Source: a virus. From it: 21,246 nucleotides of DNA. The first letter of the stretch is position 1. Each line of letters opens with the position of its first letter. The stretch spans positions 1 to 21,246 of IMG/VR virus record IMGVR_UViG_3300044701_002018; one strand, written 5' to 3'. Made by a program: the position numbers and the translations under genes. The notes under the pieces are model-generated. The model searched no databases. It saw nothing but the letters and a program-made list of their open reading frames with translations, and had not been told where the DNA came from. Below are positions 2,403 to 15,730 of this stretch, piece by piece.

Positions 2403-4337
2403 ATGCGTAAACTTATTTTTTTACTAAGTTTTTTTGCTGCCTCTTTTTCTCACTCACAAACAGCAGAATATCAAGCTGGAAGATTTCTATCTCCGATCAA
2501 TGCCAACTCGGCTTATCTGCGTGGTTACACTGGAGCCGGTAGTACCATACTTATAATTGATACCGGTATTAATTTTAACAGTCCAGAATTTAAAAACAAA
2601 ATACTCAACAGTATTGACTATACCGGCACAGGAATTTTGGATAAAGTAGGACACGGTTCAAATGTTGCTTCTATTGCTGCCGCAGCGCAAGATGGTAAAG
2701 GAATGATGGGAGTAGCATATGATGCCAATTTGTTAATTGCCAAAGTCACTAATAATAATTCATATAATTTTAGCAATGCCTTGAGAGCAATACAATGGGG
2801 AGGATCACAAGGTGCCATTGTTGCCAACATAAGCGCCAATGTTGTTTCTAATGCAAATTATATAAGCTACACCAAACAGATAAGTCCGGGCGTTTATCAA
2901 AATACTCATCCGGTATACGGTGGCACCAACTATTATAATCTAGAAAAACCCAGTGATTGGGCCAATGCACTAAAGGGTAATAATATTATTTTGGTAGTAT
3001 CGGCTGGCAATTCTGGCCGAGCCTATCCGGACAATCCGGCAACATTTGCAACTGCTACAGATGCTGACGGAAATCTCATGCTAGGCGGACGGATGCTGAT
3101 TGTGGGCAATTGGGATCAATTGCGTAACAGACCTCACATTACTTCTAATCTTGCTGGTACTATATGTAAAAATGTTGCCAACGGCGCTTGCCAGGATCAA
3201 TATCGTATTAGTGATTTTTATATTATGGCCCCAGGAACAGCCAACTATGGCGTTTCTGCAAACGGATATGTTGGTATGACTGGTACTAGCCAGGCAACAC
3301 CTGTTGTAGCAGGTGCGGTTGCAATTATAAATCAAATGTGGCCAAATATGAAACCCGAGAATATTGTTCAACTGTTGTTAGTTACAGCAAATAAAAATAT
3401 TCCAAATTACAATCCAGCCACAATGGGACAGGGACTTCTTGATCTTAATCGTGCCACACAACCAATTGGGGTACTAACTATTCCAACTACCGGCCGTGTT
3501 GGTGTCGGTGGTGTGATTGCTACGCCGCTGATAACCAGTGGTAGTGCAAGTCTCGCCAAAATAAGTTCTGTAATGGTACTTGATTCTTTTGAAAGAGATT
3601 TTTACACAACCGGTCGTTCGTTGACTATTGCACAACCTGTTACTGAGTTTAATCCTGCTCAGTCTTCAATGCCTTATCGCACACATAATAGTTATTCACT
3701 GTTTAATAATTACATCGATTCTGTTGCATCAAAAGCACAAAATATTGAAATGAAAATGTATTTTGATGGACGGTCAAACAATCATATGATTGAGATTGGG
3801 CGCAAATGGGAATACGATAAAATTGATTTTTCATTTTCAGGCGGTGGCTTTCAGGAAACAGGAAGCTGGTTAGGATCAAGCGGAACATCTAACAGTTATA
3901 CCACATATAGCCATATGTCAATTACAAATCATCTATCAGATAGCGATAGAATTTTTGGAACAGTTGGTTATGGTGTAACATCTGCTAACTTTAATAACGG
4001 ACTGTTCACCTTGGGATCAGTACAAAGTTATACCTGGAATGTTGGCGTAGAACACGACCTAGATGACAAACAAACTGTGGGATTAATGTTAAATCAACCC
4101 GTTACTGTTGTAAACACATCAACAACAGTAAACGTTCCAGTTGGAATGGATTCTCAAGGTGCTATTCAATTTAATCAGCAACGTGTTAGTCTGACTCCGG
4201 ATGTAAAAGAACTTCGACTTGGCGCTTATTATAAAACCAATAATGTTGTTGGATACGTTGAACGTAGACAAAATTACCTTGGACAAAGTGGTATATACAA
4301 TGATGTAGTAGGTGTAGTAGCTAACTTTTCTTTCTAA
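2403..4337 (+). CDS. Secreted subtilisin-family (S8) serine protease with autotransporter-like C-terminal barrel
   Basis: The 644-residue protein starts with a signal peptide (MRKLIFLLSFFAASFSHSQ). Residues about 38-350 form a subtilase domain with a full catalytic set: D53 in IIDTGI, H84 in GHGSNVAS, oxyanion N203 in SAGNSG, and S296 in GTSQATPVVAGA. Residues about 445-644 are rich in alternating hydrophobic/polar strands and aromatic residues and end in VVGVVANFSF, the terminal-Phe pattern recognised by the outer-membrane assembly machinery. This is the layout of an S8 autotransporter of Gram-negative bacteria, although the barrel part is shorter and less typical than the usual 12-strand domain. 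An in-frame ATG at 2364 lies in the terminator; 2403 is preferred because it gives a clean signal peptide. No Shine-Dalgarno is visible. It has its own promoter and is unlike its neighbours, suggesting acquisition from a bacterium. The target of the protease is unknown. Confidence 0.9.
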   Translation: MRKLIFLLSFFAASFSHSQTAEYQAGRFLSPINANSAYLRGYTGAGSTILIIDTGINFNSPEFKNKILNSIDYTGTGILDKVGHGSNVASIAAAAQDGKGMMGVAYDANLLIAKVTNNNSYNFSNALRAIQWGGSQGAIVANISANVVSNANYISYTKQISPGVYQNTHPVYGGTNYYNLEKPSDWANALKGNNIILVVSAGNSGRAYPDNPATFATATDADGNLMLGGRMLIVGNWDQLRNRPHITSNLAGTICKNVANGACQDQYRISDFYIMAPGTANYGVSANGYVGMTGTSQATPVVAGAVAIINQMWPNMKPENIVQLLLVTANKNIPNYNPATMGQGLLDLNRATQPIGVLTIPTTGRVGVGGVIATPLITSGSASLAKISSVMVLDSFERDFYTTGRSLTIAQPVTEFNPAQSSMPYRTHNSYSLFNNYIDSVASKAQNIEMKMYFDGRSNNHMIEIGRKWEYDKIDFSFSGGGFQETGSWLGSSGTSNSYTTYSHMSITNHLSDSDRIFGTVGYGVTSANFNNGLFTLGSVQSYTWNVGVEHDLDDKQTVGLMLNQPVTVVNTSTTVNVPVGMDSQGAIQFNQQRVSLTPDVKELRLGAYYKTNNVVGYVERRQNYLGQSGIYNDVVGVVANFSF

Positions 4338-5512: not shown

Positions 5513-6091
5513 ATGACAACAATTAATGTTGATGTAGGGAATCAACCACCCGAACAAGCAGTTGCAACTTTAGAACAACTTGGTGCATTTGGTAATCAAC
5601 CAAGAACTTACAAATATACCAGTACCAAAGAGTATCACGACGCCTTTCCTTGTGCATATCGGCAATGGCGAGCCGACAGCCACTGCAACCTAATTCACGG
5701 TTACTCATTTTCAATGAAGTTCTACTTTGGAACCAATGATCTAGATGTACGTAACTGGGCTGCTGACTACGGTGGCCTGAAAGAACTTAAAAGAGTATTA
5801 GAAGATCAGTTTGACCATACCTTGATCGTAGCACAAGATGATCCCGAACTAGAAACATTCAAATTGCTACAAGCCAAGAACATGGCCAAGATTGTGGTGT
5901 TGCCCCGACTAGGTTGCGAAGGACTTGCAGATCAACTATACAAATATGTGAATGGTGTATACATTCCAGATATGTGGGGGCCTAGCGAAGCGGCTAGACT
6001 CTGGTGCTATAGAGTAGAAGTACGAGAAACACAAGCAAATATGGCTTTCCGCGAAGGTCATCGTGAGTGGAATGAGGATCTATTTGTATGA
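5513..6091 (+). CDS. queD: QueD-like 6-carboxytetrahydropterin synthase, divergent zinc site
   Basis: QueD converts dihydroneopterin triphosphate (the FolE product) to 6-carboxytetrahydropterin. The 192-residue protein has the family framework: SHCNLIHGYSF at 56-66, the WAADYGGLKELKRVLEDQFDHT block at 82-103 (D101-H102), the GCEGLADQLYKYV segment, and VEVRET with E172. Compared with E. coli QueD, the catalytic Cys (C58) and the first His of HGH (H62) are kept, but the His of the AAHR motif is Tyr (Y49 in CAYRQW) and the second His of HGH is Tyr (Y64). Two of three expected zinc ligands are thus changed. The N-terminal about 30 residues are extra. It starts after AGGAG with a promoter candidate close upstream, and overlaps the next gene by ATGA. 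It could be a clade with another metal site, or an altered activity. Confidence 0.85.
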   Translation: MTTINVDVGNQPPEQAVATLEQLGAFGNQPRTYKYTSTKEYHDAFPCAYRQWRADSHCNLIHGYSFSMKFYFGTNDLDVRNWAADYGGLKELKRVLEDQFDHTLIVAQDDPELETFKLLQAKNMAKIVVLPRLGCEGLADQLYKYVNGVYIPDMWGPSEAARLWCYRVEVRETQANMAFREGHREWNEDLFV

Positions 6092-6300
6092 ACGAAAGAC
6101 TTCAAGAACTTGCTACACAAGCCGGATATAAAGATTTTAATTATGCTATTATTGCTCATAAATTTGCCGATCTTATTATTCAGGAGTGTATTAAAATAGT
6201 TCATGAGCAAGATAAAATTCCCGAAGGATTCTTGTATCCAAAATCTGCACACATACACGAATTGGCAATCAAACAACATTTTGGAATAGACAATGAGTAA
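6088..6300 (+). CDS. Small conserved phage protein of unknown function
   Basis: A 70-residue, mostly helical protein (MNERLQELATQAGY...FADLIIQECIKIV). Short proteins with this 'NERiqeLa.qAg...faelIv.eC' pattern are frequent in T4-like phages and have no known function. It is sandwiched by overlaps between queD (ATGA) and queE (8 bases), so it is translated with the two deazaguanine genes, though nothing in it indicates an enzyme. Confidence 0.75.
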   Translation: MNERLQELATQAGYKDFNYAIIAHKFADLIIQECIKIVHEQDKIPEGFLYPKSAHIHELAIKQHFGIDNE

Positions 6301-7150
6301 AATCAAAGTAGCAGAATTATTTTATAGCATACAAGGCGAAGGACGCTATATGGGTGTCCCTAGTGTTTTCTTACGCACGTTTGGTTGCAACTTTAAATGT
6401 GCCGGCTTCGGTATGCCAAGAGGTGAATTGAGTCGAGAAGCAGAGTCGGTTGATCCTTCTAAATACGCTCGTTACGAAGAACTTCCTCTGGTGAGTACAG
6501 GATGTGACAGTTATGCGTCGTGGGATCCAAGATTTAAAGATCTAAGTCCTGTACTAACTTCAGATGCTATTGTAGAACGCATTATGGAAATTCTTCCTTT
6601 TGGTAAATGGAAGGATGAGCATCTTGTTATTACAGGAGGCGAGCCTCTATTAGGTTGGCAGCGTAGTTACGAGGATCTATTAAACCATCCTCGTATGCAA
6701 AAGTTAAAAGAAATTACTTTTGAAACTAATGGCACCCAGGAGTTATCTAAAGAGTTTAGACATTACTTGTTAGATTGGACACTAAATCCAAAATTTGGTC
6801 GTAGAGGATACAATGCTCTTACATTTAGTGTAAGTGCTAAACTTCCGGCTAGTGGTGAGCTATGGACGGATGCTATTAGACCAGACATTGTTCGTAGTTA
6901 CGAAGAATTAGGTCATACCTATCTCAAGTTTGTTGTAGCCACAGAACAAGATGTTGAAGATGCATTAAAAGCTCGAGATCAATATCGAAATGCAGGATTT
7001 AAAGGTGATGTGTATCTTATGCCAGTAGGTGGTGTAGAAAGTGTTTATTCCTTGAATAATCGTGCAGTAGCATTACTAGCTATGAAACACGGACTGCGTT
7101 ATAGCGATAGATTGCAAGTACCGTTGTTTAAAAATGAATGGGGAACTTAA
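6293..7150 (+). CDS. queE: QueE-like radical SAM 7-carboxy-7-deazaguanine synthase, with insertion in the cluster motif
   Basis: QueE turns 6-carboxytetrahydropterin into 7-carboxy-7-deazaguanine using S-adenosylmethionine and a 4Fe-4S cluster. The 285-residue protein opens with VAELFYSIQGEGRYMGVPSVF, the standard QueE start, then FGCNFKCAGFG at 30-40. The usual CX3CX2C is interrupted: C32 and C36 are present, but the third cysteine appears to be C71 in STGCDSYASW, after about 34 residues, since the Asp following it matches the usual WCDT. ITGGEPLL at 113-120 is the SAM-binding segment and FETNGT at 143-148 is the expected next block. A displaced third cysteine is known in some QueE enzymes (CX14CX2C in Burkholderia), so activity is plausible. 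The stop overlaps the next start by one base. Confidence 0.9.
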   Translation: MSKIKVAELFYSIQGEGRYMGVPSVFLRTFGCNFKCAGFGMPRGELSREAESVDPSKYARYEELPLVSTGCDSYASWDPRFKDLSPVLTSDAIVERIMEILPFGKWKDEHLVITGGEPLLGWQRSYEDLLNHPRMQKLKEITFETNGTQELSKEFRHYLLDWTLNPKFGRRGYNALTFSVSAKLPASGELWTDAIRPDIVRSYEELGHTYLKFVVATEQDVEDALKARDQYRNAGFKGDVYLMPVGGVESVYSLNNRAVALLAMKHGLRYSDRLQVPLFKNEWGT

Positions 7151-9416: not shown

Positions 9417-10406
9417 ATGAGATATCTAATTGTAGACACAGCCAATACATTCTTTCGTGCTCGCCATTCTGCAAGCCGTCAATCGGACACCTGGGATAAG
9501 TTAGGGTTCGCAATTCATGTTACCTTGGCGTCAGTTAATAAAGCGTGGAGAGAACATCAAGCCGATCACGTCGTATTCTGTTTGGAGGGACGGAGCTGGC
9601 GCAAAGATTTCTATGAACCCTACAAGAAGAACCGTGCAGTCGCGAGAGCTGCGCTCACGGAAGCGGAAGCTGAAGAGGACCGACTTTTTTGGGAAACTTT
9701 CGATAATCTTAAGACTTTTCTTGCTGAGAAAACTAATTGCACCGTGCTCCAACACAGCGAGCTCGAAGCAGATGATCTTATCTCTGGTTGGATCTGGAAC
9801 CATCCCAATGACAGTCATATCATTGTTTCTTCCGACACTGACTTTCACCAGTTACTGGCGCCGAATGTACAACAATATAATGGTGTTGCCGACGAGCTTC
9901 ATACACTAGAAGGTATCTTTGATAAAAAGGGTAAACTAGTAATTGACAAGAAAACCAAAGCGCCAAAAGTCATACCTAATCCAAAATGGATCCTGTTTGA
10001 GAAGTGTATGCGCGGAGATCCGACAGACAATGTGTTTTCCGCCTATCCGGGTGTTAGGACCAAAGGTTCCAAGAACAAAATTGGTCTCACTGAAGCTTTT
10101 GCTGACCGGGATAAAAAAGGATTTGATTGGAACAACCTTATGCTTCAAAGATGGACAGATCATAACGGTCTGGAGCATAGAGTATTAGACGATTACAATC
10201 GCAATGTTACTCTAGTAGATCTTACTGCACAGCCCGAGGATATCAAAGCAAAGATTAATGAAACTGTACACACAGGTGCTGTAAAGAAAAGTAGACCAAT
10301 GGTAGGTGCTCAGTTTCTCAAGTTCTGTGGCAAGTACGAACTTAACAGACTTAGTGAACATTCATCAAATTATGCAGAATTATTAAGTGCAGAGTATCCC
10401 GAATGA
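9417..10406 (+). CDS. 5'-3' exonuclease / RNase H (T4 Rnh-like, FEN family)
   Basis: A 329-residue member of the T4 RNase H/flap-nuclease family, which removes RNA primers and 5' flaps during phage DNA replication. Acidic metal-binding residues fall in the expected blocks: D7 in LIVDTAN, EADD at 117-120, SSDTDF at 138-143 with D140 and D142, and RGDPTDN at 199-205 with D201 and D204, followed by the AYPGVRTKGS helix-hairpin segment. The 'GRSWRKDFYEPYKKNR' arch-base region at 58-73 with conserved Arg and Lys is also present. Its length is close to T4 Rnh (about 305). It starts 17 bases after a TATAAT box and overlaps the next small gene by ATGA. Confidence 0.92.
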   Translation: MRYLIVDTANTFFRARHSASRQSDTWDKLGFAIHVTLASVNKAWREHQADHVVFCLEGRSWRKDFYEPYKKNRAVARAALTEAEAEEDRLFWETFDNLKTFLAEKTNCTVLQHSELEADDLISGWIWNHPNDSHIIVSSDTDFHQLLAPNVQQYNGVADELHTLEGIFDKKGKLVIDKKTKAPKVIPNPKWILFEKCMRGDPTDNVFSAYPGVRTKGSKNKIGLTEAFADRDKKGFDWNNLMLQRWTDHNGLEHRVLDDYNRNVTLVDLTAQPEDIKAKINETVHTGAVKKSRPMVGAQFLKFCGKYELNRLSEHSSNYAELLSAEYPE

Positions 10407-12478: not shown

Positions 12479-12675
12479 GTTTGTCTATAAAAAATTTCAA
12501 TGACAAAATAAAGATAATGAATCAAACTGGTAGCAAACAGTTATCTTTATCTGCAGATGAAGCAAGAAATCTACATACTGATATATTTAATTTATTGACT
12601 AATATAGCGGAGTTGCAATCACAACCAGAGCAACCAAAATCCACGTCAATAAATTTTGATGGGGGCAGTTTTTAA
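12466..12675 (+). CDS. Small conserved phage protein of unknown function
   Basis: A 69-residue protein overlapping the previous gene by 13 bases; an internal ATG at 12517 is an alternative start that would avoid the overlap. The middle reads LSLSADEARNLHTDIFNLLTNIAEL (a long helix), and the end is INFDGGSF. The 'LSa.eARNLH.DI..LL..I.eL' helix plus '.DGG.F' tail is a pattern recalled from T4-like cyanophages. No function is known. It is the last gene of the coupled run that starts at 9417. Confidence 0.7.
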   Translation: MQKLSLSIKNFNDKIKIMNQTGSKQLSLSADEARNLHTDIFNLLTNIAELQSQPEQPKSTSINFDGGSF

Positions 12676-12696
12676 CTTAAACTACCCATATATTAG

Positions 12697-12710
12697 CATA
12701 AATATATAAT
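12697..12710 (+). promoter_or_regulatory. Candidate promoter: CATAAATA plus TATAAT
   Basis: CATAAATA (12697-12704), a T4-like late promoter-like octamer, runs directly into TATAAT (12705-12710). No good -35 box is seen at the expected place. The next start codon is at 12724 with AAGGA before it. Confidence 0.4.
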
Positions 12711-12723
12711 CAAGGAATAAAGT

Positions 12724-13011
12724 ATGTCTAGACCTAAACCAACAGTGTTATTAGAACACGTTAATAAATCTAATTATAAAACCGATCAGGTACTAAGTAG
12801 CGAAGGCATATGGGCGGTTTTTTACGATGATAAACCAATTAATTTAAAGAGTTCAAATATGTTGGTTGCTTACCCTGGTCCCAAATACAAAAAAGTCAGC
12901 TTTAGCAATAGCGGACACGCTATCAATCTTTGCAAAAAACTTAACACTCTTTTCAAAACAGACAAATTCACAGTGGTCTTAATGAAACAAGGTGACCAAG
13001 TCTACCCATAA
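12724..13011 (+). CDS. Conserved phage protein of unknown function
   Basis: A 95-residue protein preceded by AAGGAATAA and a promoter candidate. Recognisable elements are GIWAVFYDDKPINLK at about 28-42, KYKKVSFSNSGHAINLCKKLN at about 55-75 and FTVVLMKQGDQV at the end. This 'WAVfYd..PiNLk ... FsN.GHAi.La..LN' pattern occurs in T4-like marine phages and has no assigned function. The last 20 bases overlap the GTG start of the next gene. Confidence 0.75.
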   Translation: MSRPKPTVLLEHVNKSNYKTDQVLSSEGIWAVFYDDKPINLKSSNMLVAYPGPKYKKVSFSNSGHAINLCKKLNTLFKTDKFTVVLMKQGDQVYP

Positions 13012-13357
13012 TCAGCAGAGTTATACCGAAGGCATACTAGCAGCAGCCGGATTCAGCTCGTCTGAATATCCGCAATACATCCGAGTTTGGTGGTGGAATC
13101 ATACAGATTCCGCTAATCTTAGACTAAGCAAGCCAGGATTGCAGTTTATTAAAAAATTTACAAAGATACCTGTGTACAATTGTGTCTTGTCTGATCCGTT
13201 AAAAAATCGAACCCTTGTACAACTGAGCCGCCTAATGACTTGTCCATACTATATACACAAAATCAATGAAATATCCGTACTTGGCGAACAAGAGTTTGTT
13301 ATGTTAAAATTACACGCGGATAACCTTCAACAATACCTGGACAACTTGCAACTTTAA
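12992..13357 (+). CDS. Conserved phage protein of unknown function, GTG start
   Basis: A 121-residue protein. No ATG is available near its 5' end; the GTG at 12992 (20 bases inside the previous gene) is the most likely start. The elements are YIRVWWWNHTDSANLRLSKPGLQFI at about 29-53 and LMTCPYYIHKINEISVLGEQEFVMLKL at about 81-107, with a DNLQQYLDNLQL end. The 'WWWN...NLRLs..G..F' and 'cPYYi......i.vl.E.ef.mL.L' pattern is recalled from phages with no assigned function; the beta-rich end could be a binding domain. Confidence 0.7.
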   Translation: MTKSTHNQQSYTEGILAAAGFSSSEYPQYIRVWWWNHTDSANLRLSKPGLQFIKKFTKIPVYNCVLSDPLKNRTLVQLSRLMTCPYYIHKINEISVLGEQEFVMLKLHADNLQQYLDNLQL

Positions 13358-13363
13358 CAAGCG

Positions 13364-13392
13364 TTGCACATAATTCGCGTTTTGCATATAAT
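13364..13392 (+). promoter_or_regulatory. Sigma70-like promoter
   Basis: TTGCAC (13364-13369) and a perfect TATAAT (13387-13392), spacing 17. Transcription would start near 13399, leaving a 20-base leader with a strong AAAGGAGG ribosome site (13407-13414) before the gene at 13419. Confidence 0.75.
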
Positions 13393-13418
13393 ATATAGTC
13401 TTCACTAAAGGAGGCTTT

Positions 13419-13754
13419 ATGTTTGCTCGTACATATATTGCAAAATATGCAACACGAAATAACAAAAAAGCAATAGTTCAATATTACAAAATACCCGCAA
13501 CAGAAAAATGGGTAGAATATATGTTGGACAAGCACGATGTTAACAAAATACTAATGGATAGCGATTTTGCAACAAAAATGGACTTGTTAGAAGTTTTGCA
13601 AGTTTTAGAGCGCAAAATAGACTATATGTATAAGCATCCAAATTTTGAGTTTAAAAAAGCAACAGATTTGTTTCATAGGCTCAAAAATGCAACTAAAGTT
13701 GCACCTTTAGCAACACCTAAAACTGTTGCTAAAAAGCAACGCAAAAAACGGTAG
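13419..13754 (+). CDS. Basic protein of unknown function
   Basis: A 111-residue protein with its own promoter and the strongest ribosome site of the window (AAAGGAGG), so probably well expressed early. It starts with a Tyr/Lys-rich segment, has a helical middle (KILMDSDFATKMDLLEVLQVLERKI) and ends in a strongly basic tail (VAPLATPKTVAKKQRKKR) of the type that binds nucleic acid. No family is recognised. Its coding DNA is unusually rich in GCAAC/GTTGC. Confidence 0.75.
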   Translation: MFARTYIAKYATRNNKKAIVQYYKIPATEKWVEYMLDKHDVNKILMDSDFATKMDLLEVLQVLERKIDYMYKHPNFEFKKATDLFHRLKNATKVAPLATPKTVAKKQRKKR

Positions 13755-13780
13755 ACTATAAAGACTCATTTTGTTATAGT
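13752..13780 (+). promoter_or_regulatory. Sigma70-like promoter giving a possibly leaderless transcript
   Basis: TAGACT (13752-13757) and TATAGT (13775-13780), spacing 17. The spacer shares AAGAC-CATTTTGT with the promoter at 13997. The expected start of transcription, about seven bases after the -10 box, coincides with the ATG at 13787. The -35 box overlaps the stop of the preceding gene. Confidence 0.65.
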
Positions 13781-13786
13781 TTGAGT

Positions 13787-13993
13787 ATGAAATTTATTTT
13801 ATTATATGTTGCATTAAATACAAACCCAACAATGTTGGGTAGTTACGATTCTATTAACAGTTGCAAAAATGCAATTCGTACAATTTATCTGTCACAAGTG
13901 TTTAAAAATATGCAACACTCAGATGTTGCCAATCAATTAACAGATACTTGGTTGCAACATCAACAAGAGTATGTTTGTGTTGCTAAAAAGTAA
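13787..13993 (+). CDS. Small two-cysteine protein with hydrophobic N-terminus
   Basis: A 68-residue protein (ATG at 13787; a TTG two codons earlier is the only nearby alternative). It begins MKFILLYVAL, has SINSCKNAIRT around C26, and ends YVCVAKK with C64. The plan resembles the product at 5235: a short hydrophobic start, one Cys in a 'C..a.r' helix, and one Cys four residues from a Lys-rich end. It may be exported with a disulfide. There is no Shine-Dalgarno, and the promoter position predicts a leaderless message. Confidence 0.65.
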   Translation: MKFILLYVALNTNPTMLGSYDSINSCKNAIRTIYLSQVFKNMQHSDVANQLTDTWLQHQQEYVCVAKK

Positions 13994-13996
13994 CGG

Positions 13997-14025
13997 TTGT
14001 CCAAAAAGACCCATTTTGTTATACT
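13997..14025 (+). promoter_or_regulatory. Sigma70-like promoter
   Basis: TTGTCC (13997-14002) and TATACT (14020-14025), spacing 17, with a spacer nearly identical to that of the promoter at 13752 (AAGACCCATTTTGT versus AAGACTCATTTTGT). Transcription would start near 14032, with a leader of about 40 bases and TAGGAGAG as ribosome site for the gene at 14072. Confidence 0.7.
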
Positions 14026-14071
14026 ATGTGTGTTGGGTAGTTAATTTTAACTGTAATTTATAGGAGAGTAT

Positions 14072-14533
14072 ATGTCTAAGACTTTTACTTTTGCGGGTAC
14101 TTGCGTTGAGAACGGCGCTGTTGTTTACAAATTTGCTAACGACACTAACCGTGCTAAAGCACTTGAGCGTTTTGGTTGCACTGATGTTAACATGGTTGAG
14201 CTGCCAAACGCTATGGATAAAGAGGCTGCTGTTGCTTATTTGGCTACTGTGGGTATGACTGCTACTAAAGCCCCTCGTGCTGCAAAGGCTGCAAAGCCTG
14301 CTGCTGCAAAGCCTACAAAGGCTGTGGCTGCTAAACTGCCTAAAGTTAAGACTACTGGCGACGACGAGGTTACTCGCGAGTCTTATGCTGAGGCTATGAG
14401 CGAGCGTAGTGCTAACGGCATGCCGGTTGTGTCGTTTGCACAATACAAGCGTGATGCGGCTAAGGCTGTGGCGTTCTTTGCCAAATGTGACACTAAACTT
14501 GCGGCTAAACGTGCTGCGGGTAAAGCTCTGTAA
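14072..14533 (+). CDS. Probably abundant protein with Ala/Lys/Pro-rich linker, unknown function
   Basis: A 153-residue protein in three parts: a compact N-terminal domain (1-63, SKTFTFAGTCVENGAVVYKF...), a histone-tail-like linker rich in Ala, Lys and Pro (64-95) and a helical basic C-terminal domain (100-153, TRESYAEAMSERSANGMPVVSFAQY). Codon use differs from most neighbours: all eight Glu are GAG, six of seven Arg are CGT and the seventh is CGC, and Ala and Thr are mostly GCT and ACT. Neighbouring genes favour GAA and also use AGA/CGA. With its own promoter, good ribosome site and terminator, this points to high expression or a different origin. A nucleic-acid-binding role is likely from its charge but not shown. 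It sits just before the MoxR gene. Confidence 0.8.
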   Translation: MSKTFTFAGTCVENGAVVYKFANDTNRAKALERFGCTDVNMVELPNAMDKEAAVAYLATVGMTATKAPRAAKAAKPAAAKPTKAVAAKLPKVKTTGDDEVTRESYAEAMSERSANGMPVVSFAQYKRDAAKAVAFFAKCDTKLAAKRAAGKAL

Positions 14534-14540
14534 TATAATG

Positions 14541-14584
14541 AGCGTCTGTTGTGTAAAAGCGACAGACGCTTATTCTGTTTTGTA
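14541..14584 (+). terminator. Rho-independent terminator
   Basis: AGCGTCTGT (14541-14549) pairs perfectly with ACAGACGCT (14562-14570) around a 12-base loop, followed by an interrupted T-rich tail. It lies eight bases after the stop of the gene at 14072. Confidence 0.75.
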
Positions 14585-14591
14585 CTATAAT
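14563..14591 (+). promoter_or_regulatory. Possible promoter upstream of the MoxR gene
   Basis: A perfect TATAAT (14586-14591) preceded by TTTTGTAC; the -35 region (CAGACG, 14563-14568, spacing 17) keeps only the GAC core and lies in the right arm of the terminator. Transcription would begin near 14598 and the AAGGAG site precedes the ATG at 14624. Confidence 0.45.
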
Positions 14592-14623
14592 AATGTTTCA
14601 CACGTTGAATAAGGAGATTGTAA

Positions 14624-15730
14624 ATGGCTGTAACTGAAACCCGTACGGTGACGCCCGAAGAGGCACGTAGCCGTATCCTACGCTCGTTCAAGCACCAGCG
14701 TCCGTTGTTCCTGTGGGGTCCGCCAGGCGTTGGCAAATCTGAAGTAGTAGCCGATATTACAAATGAACTCGGCGGTTATATGATCGACTTGCGTCTGAGT
14801 CAAATGGAGCCAACTGACTTGCGCGGTATTCCGTTCTTTAATAAAGACAAGGGTCTTATGGATTGGGCTCCCCCAATCGACTTGCCGGACGAAGAGCTTG
14901 CTGCACAATATCCTATTGTAGTGCTGCTGCTTGACGAAATGAATTCGGCTGCACCCGCTGTTCAGGCTGCTGCATATCAGTTAATTTTGAATCGACGCAT
15001 TGGCAAATATCACTTGCCAAAAAATGTTGTAATGGTTGCCGCGGGTAACAGAGATAGCGACAAGGGTGTTACTTATCGTATGCCTAGTCCGCTAGCAAAC
15101 CGTTTCGTACATTTGGAGGTTCGTCCTGACTTTGAATCTTGGCAGACTTGGGCTGTCAAGAACAAGATCCATCCGGATGTTGTTGGTTATCTAAGCTTTG
15201 CTAAAGCCGATATGTTTGACTTTGATCCGCGTAGTAATAGTCGTTCGTTCCCGACACCGCGTAGTTGGACCTTTGCTAGTCAGTTCTGCAACGACGAGGG
15301 TGTTAGTGCCGCTGAACTTACAGATCTGATTGCAGGTTGTGTCGGTGAAGGTACCGCGGTCAAGTTTATGGCTCATCGTAAACACGCGGCCAATCTACCC
15401 AAACCAGAAGACATTCTGTCGGGTAAAGTTAAAGAACTCAAGACCAAAGAGATTTCGGCTATGTACTCGCTGACAACTTCGATGTGCTACGAGTTGCAAG
15501 ACTACTACCAGAAGAATGGCAAGGACAAGATTGTTGACTTCCATAAAATGGCGGATAACTTCCTTCGTTTTATGATGGATAACTTTACTACCGAAGTTAC
15601 TGTTATGGGTGCTCGTGTTGCTCTTACTACGTACAACCTGCCAATGGTTCCCGGCAAGATGCCAAGTTTTGATGAGTTCCATCAGCGTTTTGGTAAGTAC
15701 GTGCTAGCGGCAGCTGGTTCGAGCAAGTAA
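14624..15730 (+). CDS. MoxR-type AAA+ ATPase
   Basis: A 368-residue ATPase. GPPGVGKS at 32-39 is the Walker A motif, VVLLLDE at 99-105 the Walker B motif, VAAGNRD at 138-144 the sensor 1 region with N142, and SPLANRFVHLEV at 155-166 contains the arginine expected as finger R160. MoxR ATPases work with VWA-domain proteins as chaperones that insert metals or remodel protein complexes. The partner here is almost certainly the VWA/metallopeptidase protein at 16156. The gene follows a possible promoter and the AAGGAG ribosome site, and ends before a terminator-like hairpin. It uses more GC-rich codons than the small genes around it. Its target in the infected cell is unknown. Confidence 0.92.
   Translation: MAVTETRTVTPEEARSRILRSFKHQRPLFLWGPPGVGKSEVVADITNELGGYMIDLRLSQMEPTDLRGIPFFNKDKGLMDWAPPIDLPDEELAAQYPIVVLLLDEMNSAAPAVQAAAYQLILNRRIGKYHLPKNVVMVAAGNRDSDKGVTYRMPSPLANRFVHLEVRPDFESWQTWAVKNKIHPDVVGYLSFAKADMFDFDPRSNSRSFPTPRSWTFASQFCNDEGVSAAELTDLIAGCVGEGTAVKFMAHRKHAANLPKPEDILSGKVKELKTKEISAMYSLTTSMCYELQDYYQKNGKDKIVDFHKMADNFLRFMMDNFTTEVTVMGARVALTTYNLPMVPGKMPSFDEFHQRFGKYVLAAAGSSK

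Follow-up and report, generated by a model that had tools for sequence, protein, structure and literature searches.

A clustered, conserved array of GCAAC/GTTGC pentamers across two unrelated genes of an uncultivated tailed phage

Why should one five-base word, in both orientations, crowd into 636 bases of a phage genome, and what might read it? The question is raised by positions 13348-13983 of a 21,246-base stretch of DNA (IMG/VR record IMGVR_UViG_3300044701_002018; the whole stretch is called the window here). The DNA comes from an uncultivated tailed phage, and the segment runs through two small unrelated genes that we call A (13419-13754) and B (13787-13993). A first-pass annotation had counted 17 GTTGC/GCAAC pentamers there. 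The clustering stands and the number does not: there are 18 sites (10 GCAAC, 8 GTTGC), out of 69 in the full 21,246 bases. The remainder of the window predicts 1.65 sites for the segment (Poisson p 3e-13), and 300 dinucleotide shuffles gave a mean of 2.4 sites and a maximum of 7. GCAAC/GTTGC is the most clustered of all pentamer families even when each is scored in its own densest 636-base window, so the edges fitted at first pass are not the source of the clustering. The six-base extensions TGCAAC and GCAACA are enriched too. The 636 bases starting at 14001 hold 2 sites, in keeping with the fading past 14000 that had been described. The array is real, selected and clade-specific.

The nearby ATPase gene turned up at 71 loci, and gene A at 64, when viral contigs were scanned. 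The gene A set takes each distinct sequence a single time and leaves out genes truncated at the end of a contig, which reduced 50 close loci to 33 distinct genes; other comparisons used chosen sequences, in sets of 26, 21 and 25, the last being the DNA alignment used for frameshifts. Gene A is at least 77% identical at 50 loci, and at 49 of these the densest 636-base window falls on that gene; in the remaining one the contig breaks off within it. In all 44 loci that include the full region, sites are densest at the array, which holds 4-18 of them (mean 10.8); the remainder averages 1.35 per 636 bases. At a further 14 loci gene A is 50-64% identical; they hold 0-3 sites, and their densest window is never at gene A. 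Counted by distinct gene A sequence, the 33 close ones carry 4-11 sites and the 8 distant ones carry 0. Gene B is found in 13 of the 33 distinct relatives. It has 5-7 sites at 12 clade loci; in the same comparison, gene B homologues at 7 other loci, which are 28-33% identical to it and in part near-identical among themselves, contain 0-1. Because homologues of A and B elsewhere lack the array, the two unrelated genes share the pentamer at this locus only, and there the array is conserved across the clade.

Two doubts raised at first pass, that similar density might be common in other regions and that close relatives might have lost the motif, were settled in favor of the array. On the contigs of two relatives, 137 kb and 112 kb long, sites are nowhere denser than in the array (15 and 12 sites), and close relatives retain the motif. 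Other dense places in large contigs are mostly long low-complexity or tail-fibre-like open reading frames (ORFs).

One simple explanation is that the proteins themselves generate the words, through peptides rich in Ala-Thr and Val-Ala written in preferred codons. In gene A, eight of the nine sites fall in phase 0, where they read GCA-ACN (Ala-Thr) or GTT-GCN (Val-Ala), and shuffling the gene's own codons still predicts 6.9 of the 9. The first-pass claim that all codon phases are used therefore fits gene B, not gene A. Background codon usage, however, predicts only 3.1 sites in gene A (9 seen, p 0.0005) and 2.5 in gene B (7 seen, p 0.0015), and the codons chosen depend on context. Across the relatives, valine before alanine is GTT in 50 of 50 cases in A and 19 of 19 in B, against 63% and 39% for other valines in these genes and 37% in the genome. 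Alanine before threonine is GCA in 90% of 177 cases in A and in 13 of 13 in B, against 72% and 60% for other alanines and 40% in the genome. No context effect like this is seen in the genome at large, and the adjacent gene C has no such preference (GTT 65% versus 60%), although Ala, Val and Lys are abundant there as well.

Selection acts on exactly GCAAC/GTTGC. Four-fold third positions of genes A and B show 1 Fitch change in 9 columns inside the pentamer and 94 in 36 outside it (Mann-Whitney p 0.0003), while the third base of a Thr or Ala codon adjoining the pentamer is mostly free to vary. Fifteen pentamer families have 3 or more such columns; none is as frozen as GCAAC/GTTGC (1 change versus 19 expected), and the runner-up is TGCAA (7 versus 19). 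Conservation at synonymous sites, which had been proposed as a check, is thus found within the pentamer only. The word also survives a change of reading frame. The tail of gene A is frameshifted in five aligned sequences (L071, L099, L109, L031, L112); L071, L109 and L112 retain GTTGC-N6-GCAAC in new frames with a changed peptide, and the other two retain one word each. Protein or codon constraint is accordingly a highly improbable account of the array, and as a sole cause it is ruled out by the codon contexts, the frozen third positions and the retention across frameshifts. These results, combined with the arrayless homologues elsewhere, uphold the first-pass proposal of a nucleotide-level function in which codon preference plays only a part.

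The sites are also arranged in a characteristic way. Of 159 pairs of neighbors no more than 25 bases apart, 141 point in opposite directions (43 of 58 with identical stretches counted once), which confirms the inverted repeats reported earlier; the reported palindrome, GTTGCAAC, is likewise present, formed by overlapping sites at 13951-13958. Within 13689-13740, five pentamers alternate strictly (GCAAC, GTTGC, GCAAC, GTTGC, GCAAC) with gaps of 4, 7, 10 and 6 bases. The five positions 5' of GCAAC (-5 to -1) are 79-89% A/T over 245 distinct flanked sites, a bias that is weaker, 60-69%, over 556 sites in two large contigs. The best spacing period, found post hoc, was 13.4.

Genes F, A and B and the three candidate promoters lie on the plus strand. 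The array begins in gene F (12992-13357), a clade-conserved ORF of 121 amino acids whose last codons contain the first site (GCAAC, 13348-13352). Three genes are touched rather than the two first reported, since 13348 falls in the 3' end of this one. Relatives of gene F also carry an excess, 56 sites in 35 sequences versus 24-25 expected from synonymous simulations. An inverted pair, GCAAC-N10-GTTGC (13348-13367), straddles the gene F stop codon, and its second arm (13363-13367) overlaps P1, a sigma-70-like promoter by consensus match (TGCACA-N16-TATAAT, 13365-13392). Similar consensus matches, P2 ahead of gene B (13752-13780) and P3 ahead of gene C (13997-14025), are pentamer-free. The statement that the array covers both intergenic promoters holds for the first intergenic region, with its site at 13363; the next two have zero sites. 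Gene A encodes 111 amino acids, predicted to form four helices, with a basic tail modeled at low confidence, and holds 9 pentamers; gene B, an ORF of 68 amino acids, holds 7, in all codon phases. The interval from gene F to the ATPase gene (13358-14623) is a cargo hotspot. Compared between the window and loci L012, L017, L019, L023, L024, L030, L032, L035 and L044, it contains genes A, B and C, a small TGCAA-rich gene and larger ORFs. In relatives with different or absent hotspot cargo, the array is missing or present only as fragments.

Inverted words could act in RNA as well as in DNA. Alternating GUUGC and GCAAC would fold the A/B mRNA, or its antisense, into successive short stem-loops, to be bound or processed, or to slow RNA polymerase or ribosomes. 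A 651-nt RNA from the region does fold better than 20 of 20 shuffles (z -5.15), an excess that abundant copies of a word and its complement would produce in any sequence; sub-regions folded separately do only slightly better than shuffles. Genes F and A carry inverted pairs at their 3' ends, as does gene B in some relatives, and terminator-like hits in 12600-15000 number 9 versus 1.9 expected. At the pair 13725/13736, three sequences (including L096 and L105) have both arms altered, to GTTGT and ACAAC, with pairing kept. In three of the four tail pairs, however, departures are mostly in a single arm and break the pair. The RNAalifold consensus of 25 sequences leaves the tail pentamer arms unused, with a covariation term of only -1.45 kcal/mol, and Rfam gave no family up to E 1 in 12900-14700. 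The partnerless sites 13449, 13569 and 13659 are conserved about as well as paired ones. The single-arm changes, the consensus that ignores the tail arms and the equal conservation of isolated sites favor a word read in DNA, and we consider an RNA-level function unlikely.

The reading we favor, with confidence a little short of even, is that 13348-13983 is a cis-acting array of half-sites for one sequence-specific protein, plausibly an operator-silencer for genes A and B. What reads it is presumably a protein that acts on double-stranded DNA and so controls transcription. Such a binder would read the GCAAC half-site, usually with A/T bases on its 5' side, and the inverted neighboring half-sites would suit a dimer or a cooperative oligomer. 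It is most likely encoded by the phage. Since the array begins over the putative -35 part of P1 and continues across both genes, a bound protein would plausibly block P1 and A/B transcription. With a site on the P1 -35 and the array lying over A/B cargo, an operator-silencer of A and B is a better fit than an origin or packaging site that the phage could not do without. Of the two examples offered at first pass, binding sites for a regulator and an origin-like element, the first fits the data; the second gains no support from base skew, and the array is absent from relatives without the A/B cargo.

Several observations weigh against the operator-silencer. There is no helical phasing at 10-11 bp; the spacing is irregular. 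Several relatives lose the exact P1 pentamer, which becomes ATTGC. Neither gene A nor gene F has a clear structural relative among DNA-binding proteins, and neither a binder nor a regulator was found. Shuffling the window genes' own codons leaves a modest excess (p 0.043 for A, p 0.026 for B), and shared ancestry among the sequences means that cell counts overstate independence. One Ala-Thr column, at 13497, counts as half inside the pentamer and is not frozen (GCAAC in 16 of 33, 7 changes); counting it as inside raises the p value of the four-fold comparison to 0.003. Finally, L030, where the hotspot is empty of A/B cargo, has no array, so the array is probably not essential.

An iteron-like initiator array, or another element of DNA metabolism such as a packaging or segregation site, would also collect short repeated words. 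Short sites that are densely packed, inverted and flanked by A/T are known from origins and packaging sites within genes, and gene A contains an ultraconserved block. This block, 13545-13607 on the plus strand, is nearly without synonymous change in the alignment of 33 sequences and contains TTTTGCAAC and TTTTGCAAG; its freezing exceeds what the pentamers alone account for. The regular spacing of iterons is lacking here, as the sites are irregular and show no 10-11 bp periodicity, and relatives without the A/B cargo are without the array. In none of three large contigs does GC or AT skew change sign at the array, though phage origins need not show a switch. An origin or related element is therefore quite unlikely.

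A role in conflict, with the array titrating or recruiting a DNA-binding protein or nuclease of the host, a satellite or a rival phage, is in line with a cargo hotspot whose genes are exchanged. In a known phage-satellite conflict both sides read short inverted sites (PMC8263062). There is no known partner for such a role here, however, and no result points specifically to conflict; we regard this explanation as very unlikely.

Known systems resemble the array in part. The repressor of TipsytheTRex, a cluster A mycobacteriophage, has a 13-bp consensus and 26 genome-wide sites (PMC9283540). The operator/stoperator sites of cluster A phages (L5, TipsytheTRex) are similar in being many copies of a short asymmetric word, at promoters and within transcribed regions. 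They differ from the present case of 5 bp plus an A/T 5' flank, 18 sites in 636 bases in both orientations and mostly inverted neighbors; stoperators are genome-wide, whereas the contigs of 137 kb and 112 kb have no second cluster like the array. Iterons bound by RepA at the origin of PLE, the ICP1 satellite, share short inverted sub-repeats and, on the reading proposed here, a single protein reader (PMC8263062). Unlike those iterons, the array is mostly in coding DNA, irregularly spaced and without a skew switch. The phage lambda origin, inside gene O, consists of long direct-repeat iterons bound by the product of the same gene. Its binding sites lie within coding sequence, as the putative ones here do, but gene A gives no clear DNA-binding fold match. 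The pac site of phage P1 is made of hexamer clusters, and likewise gathers very short words within and around a gene; the array differs in being absent from a relative without A/B cargo. Stoperators, PLE iterons, lambda ori and P1 pac each differ from the array in at least one defining feature. In literature pairing GCAAC/GTTGC words with phage, titles and the opening parts of abstracts describe no such array.

The proteins of the locus have few recognizable relatives. Pfam and PHROG matched nothing useful for gene A or gene B, and the gene A sequence had no convincing match in the PDB. The helical gene A model gave a best Foldseek E of 1.1 against the PDB and best VIA Z scores of 7.3 and 6.6, under the stated noise level for helical models; its best BFVD match is an unnamed phage protein (E 0.005). 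The gene F model, predicted from 18 of 20 gene F sequences, gave KH-like rows up to Z 6.2, also under the noise level, and a best Foldseek E of 0.6. A search of the GTDB genome collection for gene A gave 40 pattern hits and zero confirmed, and a phage collection held neither a nucleotide match nor a gene A match.

Distant relatives were also scanned for an alternative repeated word at the locus, and none was as strong as the array of the window. In L127, GCAAAA occurs 8 times versus 0.8 expected, which is marginal given the number of tests. Among L115-L127, the distant homologues of gene A, GCA is used in 0 of 18 Ala-Thr pairs versus 29 of 52 other alanines, with few independent positions, and the pentamer looks avoided. 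An array inside gene C (14072-14533) was considered and rejected, as dense tails in some relatives obey ordinary codon contexts.

The wider neighborhood points to a jumbo-phage context. The ATPase (14624-15730) and a 5'-3' exonuclease (9417-10406) are 50% and 53% identical to their counterparts in the Pseudomonas jumbo phage PA5oct (Arenbergviridae), and their order is shared. ORFs at 499-1233, 5513-6091 and 6293-7150 are presumably FolE-, QueD- and QueE-like, and the PA5oct record annotates a QueE-like gene at a similar place. These genes suggest a 7-deazaguanine pathway and perhaps modified DNA. The long ORF at 2406-4337 resembles a secreted subtilisin-type protease with a C-terminal domain, unusual for a region of phage DNA metabolism. 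Large ORFs in the hotspot are, by look, presumably ParB-like, and one in L032 presumably MutH/Sau3AI-like. In three contigs (G001, G002, G003), gene strand and both skews change sign together about 12 kb downstream of the array.

It is possible, though we hold this at a good deal less than even confidence, that the locus represents an undescribed jumbo-phage system in which a protein coats a whole transcription unit through A/T-flanked pentamers set in the coding sequence of two unrelated genes. If so, the DNA array constrains the proteins, with codons and partly amino acids kept to save sites, even across a frameshift. The locus offers a clear case, in raw sequence, of a DNA- or RNA-level array overriding codon choice in two unrelated phage genes. 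It is also a caution that hidden binding sites can drive codon and selection statistics in small phage genes. The A/T-flanked GCAAC with its inverted neighbors gives a precise probe for a nucleic-acid-binding protein of uncultivated jumbo phages.
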